A DNA stretch of 64,000 nucleotides from Marvania coccoides (Eukaryota; Chlorophyta; Trebouxiophyceae; Chlorellales; Chlorellaceae), in assembly GCA_963854735.1 (NCBI GenBank), contig OY978100.1:434001-498000 (forward strand), in the 5' to 3' direction. The notes below the pieces were generated by a model. It was given only the letters and a program-made list of their open reading frames with translations. It searched no databases and was not told the DNA's origin. The translations under genes were made by a program, and so were the position numbers. Positions within the stretch are counted from its first letter, which is position 1. Every line of letters starts with the position of its first letter. This document shows, piece by piece, positions 5,409 through 12,969 of this stretch.

Positions 5409-6563
5409 TTAGTGATGATGGGGAGGTGATGCCTGTGGCCCACCGAAGCCTTGAGCAATGTGCCAGCGCACCGCATACTTGATAGCTCCTGGAGGCCGAG
5501 AAGCGCGTGCCTGTTTAAATCGAACGCTGCTTGAACAATTGGCTATATATCCCCCCCCCCCCCCCCCCTCTTCTGCAGTCCTGCACTTGTCGTGCTTCTG
5601 CACTGCGCTGCAAAAAATGGTTTGTTCGGGGTTGGTTTGGGGATGCAGCGCTGAGCGTCTCCAACGCGCAGGAAATTTCACAGAGTTCACTGCTGCAGTC
5701 AGAGGGCGGGGCTCGGAATTTGTGCCCTCTGACTCGCGATTTTCACTATTTTTTAAAGCCTGGTTGCAACTGCGGTGTGTTGAGACAGCTGTCAGCTGGC
5801 TGCTTGTTGTCAAGGTGGGAGCGCATGAAATAATCCAGAGTCAGCGCCTCACAGGTGGCAGAGCAGTATTTTAGGTACGCGGCAGGTCTGATTTTGTGGA
5901 TGAAACACTGCTACTGCTGCAGTCGTCATGCCCATGCGGCACCTTCAAGGTTTTTTTCGGGCGGGTTTCAATCTTCCGACGTTCAGCTCCTCGCAGCAGC
6001 CACCGCTGTAGAGCAATGCTGCTGCCGCCGTGGCGCCGCCTGGGGGTCTCGTGGTGCTGTCTGGCGGCTTTTGCCGTGTCCTCCAAAGCGCTGCTCCTGC
6101 AGCTGCTGCCGCCGCTGTATAGTTTTCTTGCTGCCCGACCCTTCCCCTGGCGCAGTGGACCTATGCCGAGACAGCAACAGCGCGATATACCCAACGTAGC
6201 CAGGGGTCCGCTCCGAATAAAACAAACGTGAATCCTGGGTGCCCGGTTGTCTCATTAAAGAGTTGGTTGCAACATCACGACATCGTAAACAAAGAGCCCC
6301 CCAAAAATTGAACGTACGCTGCCGCAGTTTTATCTGTTTATTATCTCAAAATAAATAATGTCTTAAACACAGAAAATCGCCTGATAATCGCGAGAGATCG
6401 GTGACGGCGGAAAAAGAAGAAAGGTGCAATTCGACATGAAAAAAAAATCGACGGAATTTCTTGGGCCAAATTTAATGCGTTTCGGGCCACCAGCGAATGC
6501 GATTTTGTTTGGGGATATATTCATGGCAGGGGACTTACACAACGAAAAAAGTTGCCACCTACC
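5409..6563. other. GC-patchy region with poly-C tract, no supported gene
   Basis: A run of 18 C lies at 5551-5568. From 5890 to 6230 the sequence is rich in CTG/CAG-type triplets, giving overlapping open frames of 100-138 codons on both strands with Cys-, Ser- or Arg-rich translations. None looks like a protein family. I treat them as composition effects. Confidence 0.45.
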
Positions 6564-6568
6564 AAAAA
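6564..6568 (-). terminator. Pol III terminator of the permuted tRNA
   Basis: On the minus strand, five T residues follow the 5' half of the tRNA by eight bases. A second run of six T lies at 6545-6550. Runs of four or more T end RNA polymerase III transcripts, which supports the assigned strand and the extent of the precursor. Confidence 0.65.
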
Positions 6569-6576
6569 GTTGGCGA

Positions 6577-6662
6577 CCTTAATGCTGCGCCTTAGACCAC
6601 TCGGCCAACCGATCGTGTGATAATCGGTACGCGATTCGAACGCGCGCACTTCCGTACAGCAG
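6577..6662 (-). tRNA. Circularly permuted tRNA-Leu(AAG)
   Basis: On the minus strand the 3' half (6662-6621) comes before the 5' half (6614-6577), with a 6-base linker TCACAC (6620-6615). Joined in mature order, all arms form. The acceptor is GATCGGT with ACCGATT plus discriminator A. The D arm is GCC-GAGTGGTCTAA-GGC. The anticodon stem is CAGCA (5' half) with TGCTG (3' half), and the loop is TTAAGGC with anticodon AAG. There is an 11-base variable arm, and the T arm is GCGCG-TTCGAAT-CGCGT. The class II layout and A73 fit leucine. CCA is not encoded. Leader TTGG (6668-6665) can pair with trailer CCAA (6573-6570) beside the two cut sites, as expected for a bulge-helix-bulge substrate. T-runs end the transcript. 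No uninterrupted tRNA reading of this locus exists. Permuted tRNAs are known from Cyanidioschyzon, Mamiellales and nucleomorphs. Confidence 0.88.
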
Positions 6663-7810
6663 AACCAATCTGTGAGATCGTTGGCAATAATCGGCTGACT
6701 ATAATCACTTATCACAGTCTAAACACGCTGAAAGCCACAAAACCAGCAATCCAATAGCTCAACCATATTTCTGACACAATGGTACGACATGACCACCAGG
6801 AGCACCAGCGTCGCGCTGCCCATGCTCACTTCCAAGCACATTTTCTGACTCCGGGCGGTACTGCACATGCCTTTGCAGTTCGTGAATCTTTCTCTTCTTT
6901 GTTCTCCTGATACGTCATCATCTTCTTCTTGTTGTAAATTCATTTCTTCTTCTCCTTCGAATATTTTTGAGTCTTTACAGCAAGCTCGCTGCCAACTAAG
7001 CAAAACCCCGCGAATAGCGCGCTTGACCATACTTTGCTCAAGTGCAATGCATTGTTCTTTTCCGTATCTACATTAATAAAAAGTGATTAATTAATATAAC
7101 TGCTGACAGATGCCACAGAATTGGCAAATTCAAACGCACTTCATATTTCTGTCGGCATAACTCACCACTGGCAGTGAGCTGCGCTCCCATTCTCCGCATA
7201 TAATTGCACTTGGTGGTGCCCAAGACTACAATATAGGCTGATTTAATTAAACAAAGACTCGGCCTGGCGCCTACTGGGCCCGCTGATTTAACTAAACCCT
7301 AACCCTATAATTTCATGTAATATTAATGAGAGAGGAGGTAAAAGAGGAGTATGGGTGGCAAGCTGATACCGTGGGTGGAGATTTCTTCAAAAGCCTCCCT
7401 TTTGGGAGCAGGGAAAATTCAAAAGGCAGAGAGAATTATTCTAAAAAAAATGTGGAATATGCCAAAGGGGTGTAATTTCTGGACCTATCAAGTAGAACTC
7501 GCCTCGATTTGGGGGGCAGCGGGGAGAGCGGCGGGGGCAGGCTCGGGCCTCTCAGCCTTCGGCTGCGACAGCCCGGCGGCCGCTGCCTCGGTCTGGAGAA
7601 CCGAATGTGTGCTCGACGTTGCTCCAGCCTGCGATGAGGAAGAAGGGGGGAACAACAAAAGGGGTTTGAGGCTGAGTGGTGCAGGCGGTTGGTGAATCTT
7701 TTTTAGCAAGGGGTACCATTAACGGCTCAGAGCGAGAAGCAAACAACGAACGAAGTGAGAATGTGCACGTATGTGGCTAGTTTTTTTTTATATTTTATTT
7801 TATTTTATTT
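6663..7810. other. Spacer, no supported gene
   Basis: Contains two telomere-like units (AAACCCT AACCCT at about 7293-7306). A frame at 7351-7695 (114 codons) includes the phrase MWNMPKGCNFW and may be a worn transposon piece, but I cannot place it. No other feature is seen. Confidence 0.4.
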
Positions 7811-8110
7811 ATGTCGGTCGCGCCGGTGGGGGACTCAGGAAGGCAGGGGCCAGAGTCTTATATTGTGGGCGACGGTGCGGTCGCCGGCGCAGTGGCAGTA
7901 TCCGTACGTCCACAGTACCTGGGGTCGATCCCACCGGTGGAAGGGGGTACTCCGCCTTACTGTGGCGGGGTGAGTGGCACGTCGCCTTGCAGGTCTCTAT
8001 AAGAGCGCCTTCGGTAGTAGACGTTACAACGATATGTAAACCCATAAACCCATAAACCCATAAACCCATAAACCCATAGCTGGGTTTATGGGTTTATGGG
8101 TTTATGGGTT
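7811..8110 (+). repeat. SINE-like dispersed repeat, copy B, with hairpin tail
   Basis: Same landmarks as the copy at 1929 (ATGTCGGTCG, GGGGACTCAGGAAGGCA, TACTGTGGCGGGGTGAG, GTAGACGTTACAACGATATG). The body ends near 8040 and runs into a tail of CCCATAAA units. The tail is followed by the reverse complement of itself. The tail unit differs from copy A (AAACCTCC). Confidence 0.65.
8047..8110. repeat. 30-bp perfect inverted repeat of an 8-mer
   Basis: The left arm 8047-8076 is built of AAACCCAT units. The right arm 8081-8110 is its exact reverse complement (TTTATGGG units). The spacer is the four bases TAGC. It would fold into a long hairpin. The unit resembles the plant/algal telomere unit AAACCCT with one extra base. 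Confidence 0.9.
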
Positions 8111-9470
8111 GAACATACCGAGTTCTTTGTTGTGAAATCATATATTCCCCCTGGGGTCTCTTTAAATCTTATTTTTGTTGAGAAATAAGACTGAGATTAA
8201 TTTTCCTCGGTACTTATTGGGCATATGCATTGCCTTGGTCTTGAAGCCCTTGGGCGGGACAACCTGCAAGAAGGTTTGCGATGCGTGAACGAGTTAGCTC
8301 CCAAGCAAATAAATTACAGGGTTTATTTGTGATGGAATAGAAACTGCCATCTCACAGCCATGTCACAGGAGGAGGAGAAAGAGGAGCTGGTGTTAACAAC
8401 CAAACACTGGCCATTCACCTTCGGCATGATGTCTCAAACTGGATTTAAACTGGTGCCTTCAGGTCAATAACGGAATACACGGTTAGTTGAAGCAGCAGCA
8501 GCGGACTTGGAGAGCAGAAAACATGCAAAAAAATATTAGATCAGAATATTTTGGAGGGCAACAGCAAAGAGGCAAACAGCAGGCAGCCAGGGCCAGCGGA
8601 GTGCGGGCAAGCAGGGGAGTGGCATTCAGCGCACAGCGCCGCAGAAACAAGAGGGAGGAGAGAAATATACGAATTTTGGGGGGCAAAAGGCCCAGCTCTC
8701 AATGGGGAGGATGATATGTCTTACCTGTCACCTCTTCGGCGCCTTAGCTTATATGAAAATTATAAAATTTAATTTAAAAAGAAGCAGCACTTTTTAGGGA
8801 TCGATGTCCTTTATCTCTTCAAAAGAAAGAATGGTATTTTTTCATGCCATTTGTTTCTGGGTTATTCCATGCACTCCACCTTGGCAACAGGCGGCATGCC
8901 TACGGCTGCTTTAACACGCCGTTTCTGCAATCAGACTGCCAACAGAGCAAAAGTCGCGAGTCGGAGGGCAAATTGTTTAGTCCCGCCCTTTGACGGCAGC
9001 GATGAACTCTGTGAGATTTCCTGTGCGTTGGAGGTGCTCAGCGCTGCAATGCCACCCCCCCACCCCCCACGCGCGGCACGATGCCGCCGGCATGTTTCCA
9101 CTCCCAGCCCCTCTCAACCTGGCCGATTCCAAAAACGACGATTTAGGATAGGATGAGGTTGATAGCGAGCCCAGATTGCATTTGGTCGAGGCGGCGATTA
9201 ACTCAATTCTGAGTTGGGCAACACCCTATCAGGCGCCATGTTAATGGGCGTGGGGCCCATATATTACGAAGGAGCACCGCCGCATTGCAACAATTCTCAG
9301 TCAGCAGTCCTCGAATGGCTGCATGGGGCAAAAACATAAATTTTAAAACTTAATTTTTAAAATTAAAACAATTGTTTAAATTAAAAAATTCCAGTTAACT
9401 GCAACGTTGCAACTGGATTTGTTTTGGAAAAAAAAAACTCGCTTGGATTTTCATTATTTAAAATTTTTAA
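8111..9470. other. Spacer upstream of the mutase gene, no gene seen
   Basis: Mixed and AT-rich sequence. Small frames (for example 8851-9156 plus) show no family features. The last 150 bases before 9471 are strongly AT-rich, as expected for a promoter and leader. Confidence 0.45.
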
Positions 9471-12400
9471 ATGGCGTTAATAAAGCAGGGGCTGCGTCGA
9501 ACAGCCCAGAGGGCGTCGTCTCTATGCCGATTTTCCGCTATCGCAACACCCGAAAGTAATGACGATCCTCGTGCGGTGTGGGAGACGAAAGCCAAAAAGG
9601 AGGCCAAGGGTGCAGACCCATACCAAGCATTTGGATCTACGAGCCACGACGTGAGTGCCTCTTGTTATTTTTTCTTTGAGAGATGAGATGGGTTGTTTGA
9701 ATTTGTTCGCTTTTTTATGCGAGCGCAGGGCGTGACTTTGAAGCCGGTGTACAGCCGGCGCGACTTGGATGAACTCCCGGATTACGGGGAAGAGTTTCCA
9801 GGCTTGGAGCCTTTCACCCGCGGCCCCTACGCCTCAATGTCAGTGATTTGGGCGGCACCGGCAGCAGACCGCTGTCCTATTACTAAAACGCAATCTCTGC
9901 ACACAGCTTACCGCGGTGTTTTCCCCTCTCCCACTTGCAGGTACACCGGCCGGCCCTGGACCATCCGCCAGTATGCAGGCTTTTCCACCGCCGAGGAGTC
10001 CAACGCCTTCTATCGGGTAAGGGAGGGGAACAGAACTGAAAGGAACAGCAGAGTGGAATCATACTGCATTCAAATATACAACATCGTTTTTTTCCTCTCT
10101 CTTTTGGGCCTCAGCCATGCAATGTGCTTTTTACAATTTCGTAAAATTGTTTAATTCTCCGCTAAATGCAATACCAGCTTAATCCCCTCTCAGCATACAG
10201 CGAATCCTAATTTATTTATTTGTCAGTAGCTATGTTTTATTCTAGTTACTTACTCTTTTTTATTCTAGTTACTTTCTGAAACGGCTGTTCCGGCTCGGTT
10301 TGCCTGCTTGCTCGTGTTTGGACTGCAGCCCACCGCCTCACACCATGCTGCAAGCTTCAGGGTCCCTTCTATGTGTCCCTAGCAAGTAGCCCCGGTTGTG
10401 ATTACTTCGTTTTTTCTTTTCATAAAGTTATGATTCCAAACACTTCGAGTGCTGTCCCCAGACAGGGCGATGCTTGTATCCCCCTCGTCTTCATCATCTA
10501 AACAGCACCGGTCGCCTCGATTACCTCTTGCTGCTCCACCTTTTTGTCCTCAACCCTGACTCAGGCGTCGACTGATATTTCTAAATAATTAAAAAATTAT
10601 GAGGGGGCCGTTTCAATTCATCGCCCATTTCATCAGCTCTGTTGTGTTTTGTTTCTCCAAATTCAACCCCTTCTTCACCTCATTTAAGCCTTCAACATTT
10701 CTATTCTTCTCACTCCCCGCCCCCCCTTTCCCCTTCCAAAAAATTATATTAACTCGCAGAGAGCGCTCGCAGCGGGGCAGCAGGGCGTCAGCGTTGCCTT
10801 TGACCTCGCCACCCACCGCGGCTACGACAGCGACCACCCCCGCGTGATGGGCGACGTGGGCATGGCGGGGGTGGCCATCGACTCGGTGGAGGACATGAAG
10901 ATCCTGTTCTCGGGCATCCCGCTCGACAGCGTCAGCGTCAGCATGACCATGAACGGCGCGGTGCTGCCCATCCTGGCCATGTTTGTCGTGGCGGCGGAGG
11001 AGTCGGGTGTCCCCGCCGCCAAGCTCAATGGCACCGTGCAGAACGACATCCTAAAGGAGTTTATGGTGCGCAATACCTACATCTACCCCCCGCACCCCTC
11101 CATGCGCATCGTCGGTGACATCTTTGCGTACTGCGCACGTGCTATGCCCAGATTCCATCCTATTTCGATCTCGGGGTACCACATGCAAGAGGCGGGGGCC
11201 ACGCCGTCGCTGGAGCTCGCTTTCACGCTGGCAGATGGGCTGGAGTACCTGCGCTGCGCCAAGGAGGCGGGGCTGGAGGTGGACGCAGTGGCGCCACGAC
11301 TTTCATTTTTTTTCGCGGTGGGCATGGACTTTTTCAGCGAGATAGCCAAGCTGCGGGCGGCGCGGCGGCTGTGGGCGCGGCTGGTGCGCGACAGGGCGGG
11401 GGCAAAGGACGAGCGGTCGCTGCTGCTGCGCACGCACTGCCAGACCAGCGGGTACTCCCTCACGGCGCAGGACCCCTACAACAACGTCGTGCGCACCACC
11501 GTGGAGGCGCTGGCGGCGGTGCTGGGGGGCACGCAGTCCCTTCACACGAATTCTTTCGACGAGGCCATAGCGCTGCCCACCGAGGCTTCCTCCCGCCTGG
11601 CGCGCAGCACGCAGCTGATTTTGGCGGAGGAGACCGGGATCACAGCGGTGGCAGACCCGCTGGGCGGGTCTTACTACGTGGAGACGCTGACGGCGCAGAT
11701 GGTGGCAGAGGCGGAACGCATAATCCAAGAGGTCGAAGACATGGGGGGGATGACGGAGGCCATTGTGGCGGGGCTGCCCAAGCTCAAGATTGAGGAGTGC
11801 GCGGCGCGGCAGCAGGCGCGCATCGACAGCGGCCGCCAAGTGATAATTGGCGTGAACAAATACGTGCCTGAGGCCAAGGGGCCGGTGGCCAGCAATGGGG
11901 GCGATGAGGACAGCAGCAGCACCAGCAGCGGGGATGACGGCGAAGGCAGCGGCGGGGGAGAGGCGTTTGCGGTGCGGCAGATTGACAACTCTGCCGTGCT
12001 GGCCACGCAGCTGGAGCGGCTGGCCGTTTTAAAATCCTCCCGCGACACGCGGCGCGTGGACGCGGCGCTGGAGGCCATCGAGGCGGCCGCGCGGTCGTCC
12101 TCCCGCGACCCGAATCTGGTGGATCTATGCGTGGCGGCAGCGAGAGAGCGGGCGACCGTGGGAGAAATCACGGCGGCGATGGAGAAGGTGTGGGGGCGGT
12201 ACGCTGCCAGCACAGGCATGGCGACGGGCACCTACGGCTCGGAGCTGGGGTCGGCAGGTGCAGCAGAGGTGGAGGCGGTTGCGACAGCTGTGGCTGAATT
12301 TGAATCTGCCGAGGGGCGGCGGCCGAGGATTCTGGTGGCCAAGATGGGCATGGACGGGCACGACAGGGGCGCCAAGGTGATGGCCACAGGGATGGCTGAC

Positions 12401-12969
12401 TTGGGCTTCGATGTGGACGTTGGTCCCCTGTTTTTGACCCCGGAGGAGGTAGCTCGCCACGCTGTAGACGCTGACGTGCATATCGTGGGGGTGTCGACGC
12501 AGGTGAGGAAAATAAAGATGTAAATTTTTCGTGTTTTTCTTTATGCTGGACTTTGTTCTTCCTTCAACTCTTTCTTTTGAATACCGAGAGCATGGCTAGT
12601 ATGTATTAATTCATTAACGCCCAGGTTGGCGATCCCTCCCCCACATCTCGTCCCTTTGATTTTTAATTTGCTCTGACCCCCATTCCTTATTCTTTTTTGC
12701 AGGCTGCAGGGCACCGCACGCTGGTGCCGGCGTTGACGCGGGCGCTGCGGGAAGCTGGTGCTGAAAATGTGCTGGTGGTGTGCGGTGGCATCATCCCTGC
12801 GCAGGACCACGTGGACCTGAGAAAAGCGGGGGTGGCAGCATTCTATGGCCCAGGCACCAGGGTGCCTGCAGCGGCGCTGGATATGCTGTCAATGCTGGAA
12901 GAAAGGAGGAAACAAAGCAGCGGCGATGATTGGAGCGGCGGTGTGGTGAAAAAGGGAGACGCGGAATGA
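9471..12969 (+). CDS. MUT: Methylmalonyl-CoA mutase, mitochondrial (B12-dependent)
   Basis: Exons 9471-9650, 9729-9838, 9941-10016, 10760-12502 and 12703-12969 give 790 aa with consistent phases. The enzyme interconverts methylmalonyl-CoA and succinyl-CoA in the mitochondrion, for propionate and odd-chain or branched amino acid breakdown. Seen: an N-terminus rich in Arg and Ser (mitochondrial targeting), [68 protein letters not shown], and the cobalamin-binding domain with DGHDRGAKV (DxHxxG), then [11 protein letters not shown]. It is the single-chain eukaryotic form. It carries an extra acidic Ser/Gly-rich insert (about residues 350-370) between barrel and B12 domain. Intron 3 is long (743 bp). 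TGTAA-type polyadenylation motifs follow at about 13064. The B12 chaperone MMADHC is in the same window. Confidence 0.95.

Follow-up and report, generated by a model that had tools for sequence, protein, structure and literature searches.

Circularly permuted tRNA genes, in which the 3' half of the tRNA is encoded ahead of the 5' half, are collected in PMC3978253, which gives 34 of them from six algae and one archaeon. According to that source 11 of 43 genes are permuted in Cyanidioschyzon merolae and two to six in each green alga or nucleomorph, the latter mostly of type II, and its section 6 reports that permuted genes of both red and green algae give rise to circular intermediates. Its table contains no Leu(AAG), and the longest linker given there is 74 nt. 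Permuted tRNA genes are also described for Auxenochlorella UTEX 250-A in the tRNA passages of PMC12633428 and PMC12636532. PMC13353863 does no more than cite Soma 2007, and the word 'permuted' is absent from PMC9871001. Type II permuted tRNA genes are already known, then, from prasinophytes, Cyanidioschyzon and Auxenochlorella, and an earlier note on this DNA fairly restricts them to a few groups of algae, to which the trebouxiophyte Auxenochlorella was added in 2025.

The locus described here lies in a window of 64 kb (the whole stretch of DNA analysed, C4:434001-498000); the assembly comprises 15 contigs with 22,462,713 bases in total. The permuted genes of this genome resemble those of the prasinophytes (Ostreococcus, Micromonas) and the Bigelowiella nucleomorph in Table 1 of PMC3978253 in having the 3' half first, a junction between positions 37 and 38 and short linkers. 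They resemble those of C. merolae in their nuclear location and in the T stretch behind the 5' half; a circular intermediate has been reported in that alga. Very probably the candidate is a functional tRNA-Leu(AAG) gene in the nucleus of a green alga, circularly permuted and of type II; it is probably also the alga's sole source of the AAG anticodon.

Structure of the tRNA-Leu(AAG) gene

The minus strand from 6662 to 6577 carries the 3' half (42 nt), a linker (6 nt) and the 5' half (38 nt) of tRNA-Leu(AAG) in that order, so the reversed halves and 6-base linker described in the earlier note are borne out by the sequence. The parts of the gene and its surroundings are as follows.

6665..6668, minus strand: leader TTGG (positions -6 to -3), placed by a register test over 15 genes
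6621..6662, minus strand: 3' half, positions 38-73, from sequence and pairing; 100% genome match at C4:440621-440662
6615..6620, minus strand: linker TCACAC, from sequence; its removal would follow PMC3978253, in the part on such genes
6577..6614, minus strand: 5' half, positions 1-37, from sequence; 100% genome match at C4:440577-440614
6569..6576, minus strand: trailer, including CCAA at 6570-6573, from sequence
6564..6568, minus strand: TTTTT, likely RNA polymerase III terminator; a T run is present in 15/15 permuted genes
6545..6550, minus strand: second T run, TTTTTT, possible back-up terminator, from sequence

Read on the minus strand, the 3' half is C TGCTG TACGGAAGTGC GCGCG TTCGAAT CGCGT ACCGATT A, and the leader before it ends in CACAGATTGGTT. 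This half supplies N38, the 3' strand of the anticodon stem, the variable arm, the T arm, the 3' strand of the acceptor stem and A73. The 5' half reads GATCGGT TG GCC GAGTGGTCTAA GGC G CAGCA TTAAGG and supplies the 5' strand of the acceptor stem, the D arm, the 5' strand of the anticodon stem, the anticodon AAG and G37; its trailer is TCGCCAAC, directly followed by the first T run. The linker has no T run. A short inverted repeat precedes the second T run and appears as a hairpin in the unconstrained fold. Both T runs had been pointed out before.

When the halves are swapped, all pairs form in the acceptor stem (7/7), D stem (3/3), anticodon stem (5/5) and T stem (5/5), which upholds the complete class II tRNA proposed in the earlier note; that description lacked the G.U wobble at acceptor pair 1:72. 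The reordered tRNA has the anticodon AAG, A73 and TTCGAAT loop already recognized, an 11-nt variable region and no encoded CCA, and is a canonical eukaryotic tRNA in its U8, GG in the D loop, U33 and UUC at 54-56. Its anticodon, A73 and variable region fit tRNA-Leu. Signs of a tRNA pseudogene (broken stems, missing invariant positions) were looked for in the candidate and none was found. The junction at 37/38 comes from reading the sequence so that all stems pair, the anticodon stem being formed across the permutation as had been proposed. Points against a functional gene are the G.U at 1:72, the reversed order of A-box and B-box and the lack of a conserved TATA upstream.

Searches for the gene

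A permuted-tRNA model (R1, 81 positions) was trained on 5 nuclear and 16 organelle tRNAs of this genome (21 in all) after their halves had been rearranged in silico; the candidate was left out of the training set, and R1 is derived from class I tRNAs. Run with default filters on both strands of the window, R1 returned the candidate as its sole match with E up to 10 (25.3 bits, E 1.7e-6). The match spans model positions 11-70 only, the candidate having a long variable arm and R1 being a class I model. A strict scanner, which demands that all stems are paired and that T33 and a T run are present, found one site in the window and none in 60 Markov-1 sequences of equal length, both strands being scanned; it recovers 13/14 of the remaining permuted genes. 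ARAGORN and Rfam (at the gathering threshold) reported no tRNA in the window, as expected because the gene is permuted.

In a search of the genome DNA, the 80-nt reassembled tRNA matched this locus alone, with both halves at 100%, and no collinear tRNA-Leu(AAG) of the same sequence, which the earlier note named as one of two findings that together would make the locus a relic, was reported elsewhere. Since the related tRNA-Leu(CAG) was likewise missing from the results of this search, a collinear tRNA-Leu(AAG) of diverged sequence may have gone undetected; three further Leu anticodons were also unrecovered.

Host genome and processing machinery

Contigs C14 (49,038 bp) and C15 (99,873 bp) have a high AT content and carry genes for mitochondrial and plastid proteins. 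Frames read on C15 include rbcL and chlN-, chlL-, minD-, cysA-, tilS- and ftsH-like frames; in the two that were checked, the chlL-like frame belongs to the NifH/frxC family and the cysA-like frame is an ABC transporter. On the evidence of these organelle contigs the host is a green alga, in agreement with the algal lineage suggested before, and from its gene content we take it to belong to the Trebouxiophyceae. The window itself also holds an HHL1-like frame, a methylmalonyl-CoA mutase reading frame with a B12-binding domain (10844-12523) and, at about 8022-8129, telomere-like inverted and direct repeats of TATGGGTT, which were a false match of the scanner.

Putative genes for the two catalytic subunits of the tRNA-splicing endonuclease (Sen2-/Sen34-like) are present. 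A PF01974 match on C8 has Sen34 as its closest solved structure (E 1.1e-13), and one on C2 has Sen2 (E 1.3e-18). RtcB matches occur in three stretches on C1.

For tRNA-Leu(AAG) we infer transcription, cutting, circle formation and aminoacylation, the circular intermediate by analogy with earlier studies of genes of this type. A single linear transcript, running from the leader through the 3' half, linker and 5' half into the trailer, would be made by RNA polymerase III and stop at the T run. In the folded precursor both halves would contribute to the anticodon stem, and the anticodon loop would be paired with the leader. The tRNA-splicing endonuclease (Sen2/Sen34) would then cut after position 37 and before position 38, and a ligase (RtcB is encoded) may join 37 to 38 to give a circle, from which RNase P and tRNase Z would excise the 6-nt linker. 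CCA would be added afterwards.

Permuted and collinear tRNA genes in the nuclear genome

An Rfam tRNA search of the genome gave at least 61 matches, and nine of the matches listed were on nuclear contigs. As few nuclear tRNAs appeared in this list of best candidates, a survey by B-box was chosen, T-arm words being independent of the order of the halves. The words searched were GGTTCGANTCC, GGTTCRANCCC, GGTTCAANTCC, AGTTCRANTCT, CGTTCGANTCG, TGTTCGANTCA and CGTTCAANTCG; the nuclear matches read were, in word order, 17/17, 55/55, 14/14, 42/42, 18/18, 13/13 and 2/35, together 161/194. These 161 sites were judged by R1, ARAGORN, Rfam (24 stretches), a purpose-written scanner and hand reading. They yielded 15 permuted genes with a readable anticodon and 17 collinear genes, that is 32 different anticodons, none of which was found in both forms. 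The fraction 15/32 refers to the recovered set, with 33 B-box matches and other B-box words lying outside it. About a dozen anticodons expected of a nuclear set, among them those for Tyr, Trp and the initiator Met and three for Leu, were not found among the 161 sites. The permuted genes are the following.

Leu(AAG): the window
Leu(CAG): L034
Glu(CTC): L035
Ser(GCT): L037
Ala(CGC): L043
Thr(CGT): L053
Arg(TCG): L061
Asn(GTT): L076/L153
Phe(GAA): L078
Thr(TGT): L089
Arg(CCG): L094
Ile(AAT): L095
Arg(TCT): L098/L154; R1 18.9 bits (weak), hand-read, linker 56 nt
Arg(CCT): L103/L155; R1 15.5 bits, 32.6 on the longer L155, hand-read, linker 54 nt
Gly(GCC): L033/L158; R1 on the T arm only, 10.9 bits, hand-read, linker 85 nt

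The collinear genes are those for Val(TAC), Gln(CTG), Met(CAT), Gly(TCC), Cys(GCA), Asp(GTC), Lys(CTT), Thr(AGT), Ser(TGA), Glu(TTC), Ser(CGA), Ile(TAT), Ala(AGC), His(GTG), Arg(ACG), Pro(CGG) and Pro(AGG), and introns are present in 10/17 of them. Every stem is fully paired in 14/15 permuted genes; the anticodon stem of Asn(GTT) has 4/5 pairs.

Four ARAGORN calls were reassigned. L170, called 'Leu aag', is a class I tRNA-Pro(AGG) with an intron, the loop TTAGGG, a Pro-like D arm and discriminator C, and so was kept out of the count of collinear tRNA-Leu(AAG) genes. For L110 ('Ser tga') the class I form and the loop CTTATG give Ile(TAT). The long variable arm in the Rfam alignment and the loop together identify both L038 ('Thr tgt', loop CTTGAA) as Ser(TGA) and L047 ('Gly ccc', loop TTCGAA) as Ser(CGA). 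Five more complete T arms in the fetched stretches could be assigned to no readable tRNA.

The survey also brought up incomplete and duplicated sequences. L060/L159 (C2:2868680-2869080) and L088/L190 (C9:367400-368000) are permuted remnants with neither a close T run nor a readable anticodon arm; L060 and L088 are probably decayed permuted tRNA genes, L088 resembling tRNA-Leu. L086 (C8:773506-773726), about 5 kb from the whole tRNA-Lys(CTT) gene in L027, duplicates the intron and 3' part of that gene and is apparently truncated at the 5' end. L144 and L145 (C5:389066 and C5:397040) are identical stretches of 201 bp, 8 kb apart, and reflect a recent duplication.

The permuted genes for Arg(TCT), Asn(GTT) and Ser(GCT) have permuted counterparts in the prasinophyte and Bigelowiella nucleomorph sets tabulated in PMC3978253. 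In contrast, Ser(CGA), Ser(TGA) and Cys(GCA) are permuted in those sets and are collinear with an intron in this genome, which has at least 15 permuted genes compared with two to six per genome there. The longest linker is 85 nt here, exceeding that of the table, and while class II tRNAs tend to be the permuted ones in the table, they make up only 3/15 here. In C. merolae, Leu(CAG) and Thr(CGT) are permuted at 37/38 as they are here; however, junctions in that alga lie at several positions (types I-IV) whereas all 15 here are type II, and Arg(CCT) is type IV there and type II here. Auxenochlorella UTEX 250-A is alike in being a small green-algal genome with a tRNAscan-SE set that is incomplete because of permuted genes, as reported in the relevant parts of PMC12633428 and PMC12636532; its genome has a GC content of 63.9% compared with 49-62% per 4-kb block in this window. 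No genome with at least 15 permuted tRNA genes was found in the literature searched.

Shared anatomy of the permuted genes

All 15 permuted genes can be read with a 37/38 junction (type II), and their linkers range from 6 to 85 nt. A run of at least four T begins 2-8 nt past the 5' half in 15/15 (at 5 nt in Arg(TCG)), against a background in the window of 0.052 per random site. In L089 the linker of permuted Thr(TGT) carries TTTT immediately ahead of the 5' half, where Pol III might terminate too early. TATA-like words were present in 6/15 leaders, with no conserved upstream position or TATA, in contrast to C. merolae, where TATA-like sequences lie upstream of most permuted genes. A G.U pair at 1:72 is commoner in permuted genes (7/15) than in the collinear ones whose pair could be read (2/16, out of 17), but at Fisher p 0.054 the difference is not put forward as a finding; such a pair might ease end cleavage in a circle.

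Geometry of the junction

In ordinary eukaryotic introns, the nucleotide that pairs with position 32 of the anticodon loop is the third one ahead of the 3' site. Positions 32 and -3 are pairable in 7/8 of the collinear introns examined here (10 were found). In the permuted genes, loop positions 32-35 set against leader positions -3 to -6 give 41/60 pairs (mean with swapped partners 31.3), a count reached by 10/20,000 permutations in which leaders and loops were swapped among the 15 genes; a six-position version gives 53/90 pairs, reached by 75/20,000. This register came first among the 27 tried, and the second and third are on the same diagonal. The neighbouring register, with 32 opposite -4, is also somewhat favoured (37/60; 419/20,000 permutations), and the single pair 32/-3 is found in 9/15 permuted genes, equal to 32/-4 (9/15), and is not decisive alone. 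Leader complementarity of free length is marginal, being reached by 1,721/20,000 permutations for the loop and by 1,181/20,000 for the loop plus trailer.

A BHB-type junction register thus holds across the permuted genes of this genome, and from this result the leader appears to occupy the place of the intron 3' end. In the candidate, leader TTGG and loop TTAA (32-35) form 4/4 pairs, two of them G.U, which is a weak helix for one gene, and in the unconstrained fold the trailer hairpin competes with it. The earlier note had paired TTGG with the trailer CCAA. That pairing can form as an alternative, but the register of the gene set places TTGG against the loop.

Alternative explanations

The locus could be a rearranged non-functional relic, the true tRNA-Leu(AAG) being encoded elsewhere. 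The genome does contain permuted remnants, L060 and L088; unlike those decayed sequences, however, the candidate has all stems intact and a T run behind it, and its only genomic match is the locus itself. This explanation is therefore improbable. Far less probable still is a split, trans-spliced tRNA, whose adjacent halves would each be transcribed alone. Split tRNAs likewise consist of two halves with complementary flanks, but here the halves share a strand and are separated by only 6 nt, a spacer that contains no T run; both acceptor strands belong to a single hairpin, and the linkers of the 15 genes measure 6-85 nt.

Chance assembly of tRNA-like pieces would fit the unconstrained fold of the 127-nt region, which is unexceptional (z -1.09), yet it hardly deserves belief given the E value of the R1 match and the failure of the strict scanner to find any site in the 60 shuffled windows. 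A working permuted gene for tRNA-Leu(AAG) is thus strongly preferred.

Conclusions

As far as searched, what is new is the permuted Leu(AAG) gene and the extent of permutation, with 15/32 of the recovered set as against the maximum of 11/43 in the 2014 table of PMC3978253. Many of the alga's tRNAs are probably produced through circular RNAs. On balance we lean towards permutation being a standard architecture in this genome, in which about half of the nuclear tRNA genes are permuted, much of translation depends on RNA circles, and permuted genes have arisen repeatedly from genes with a 37/38 intron, the leader keeping the splice-site geometry. Since permuted genes are missed by standard tRNA finders, algal tRNA sets are under-annotated.

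Through the register shared by leader and anticodon loop, permuted junctions and ordinary introns come under a single endonuclease rule. With at least 15 permuted genes of one junction type and distinct anticodons, the origin of permutation becomes directly testable, the competing routes being tandem duplication of intron-bearing genes and reverse transcription of circles. The gene set points to circular pre-tRNAs as a possible basis of essential decoding.
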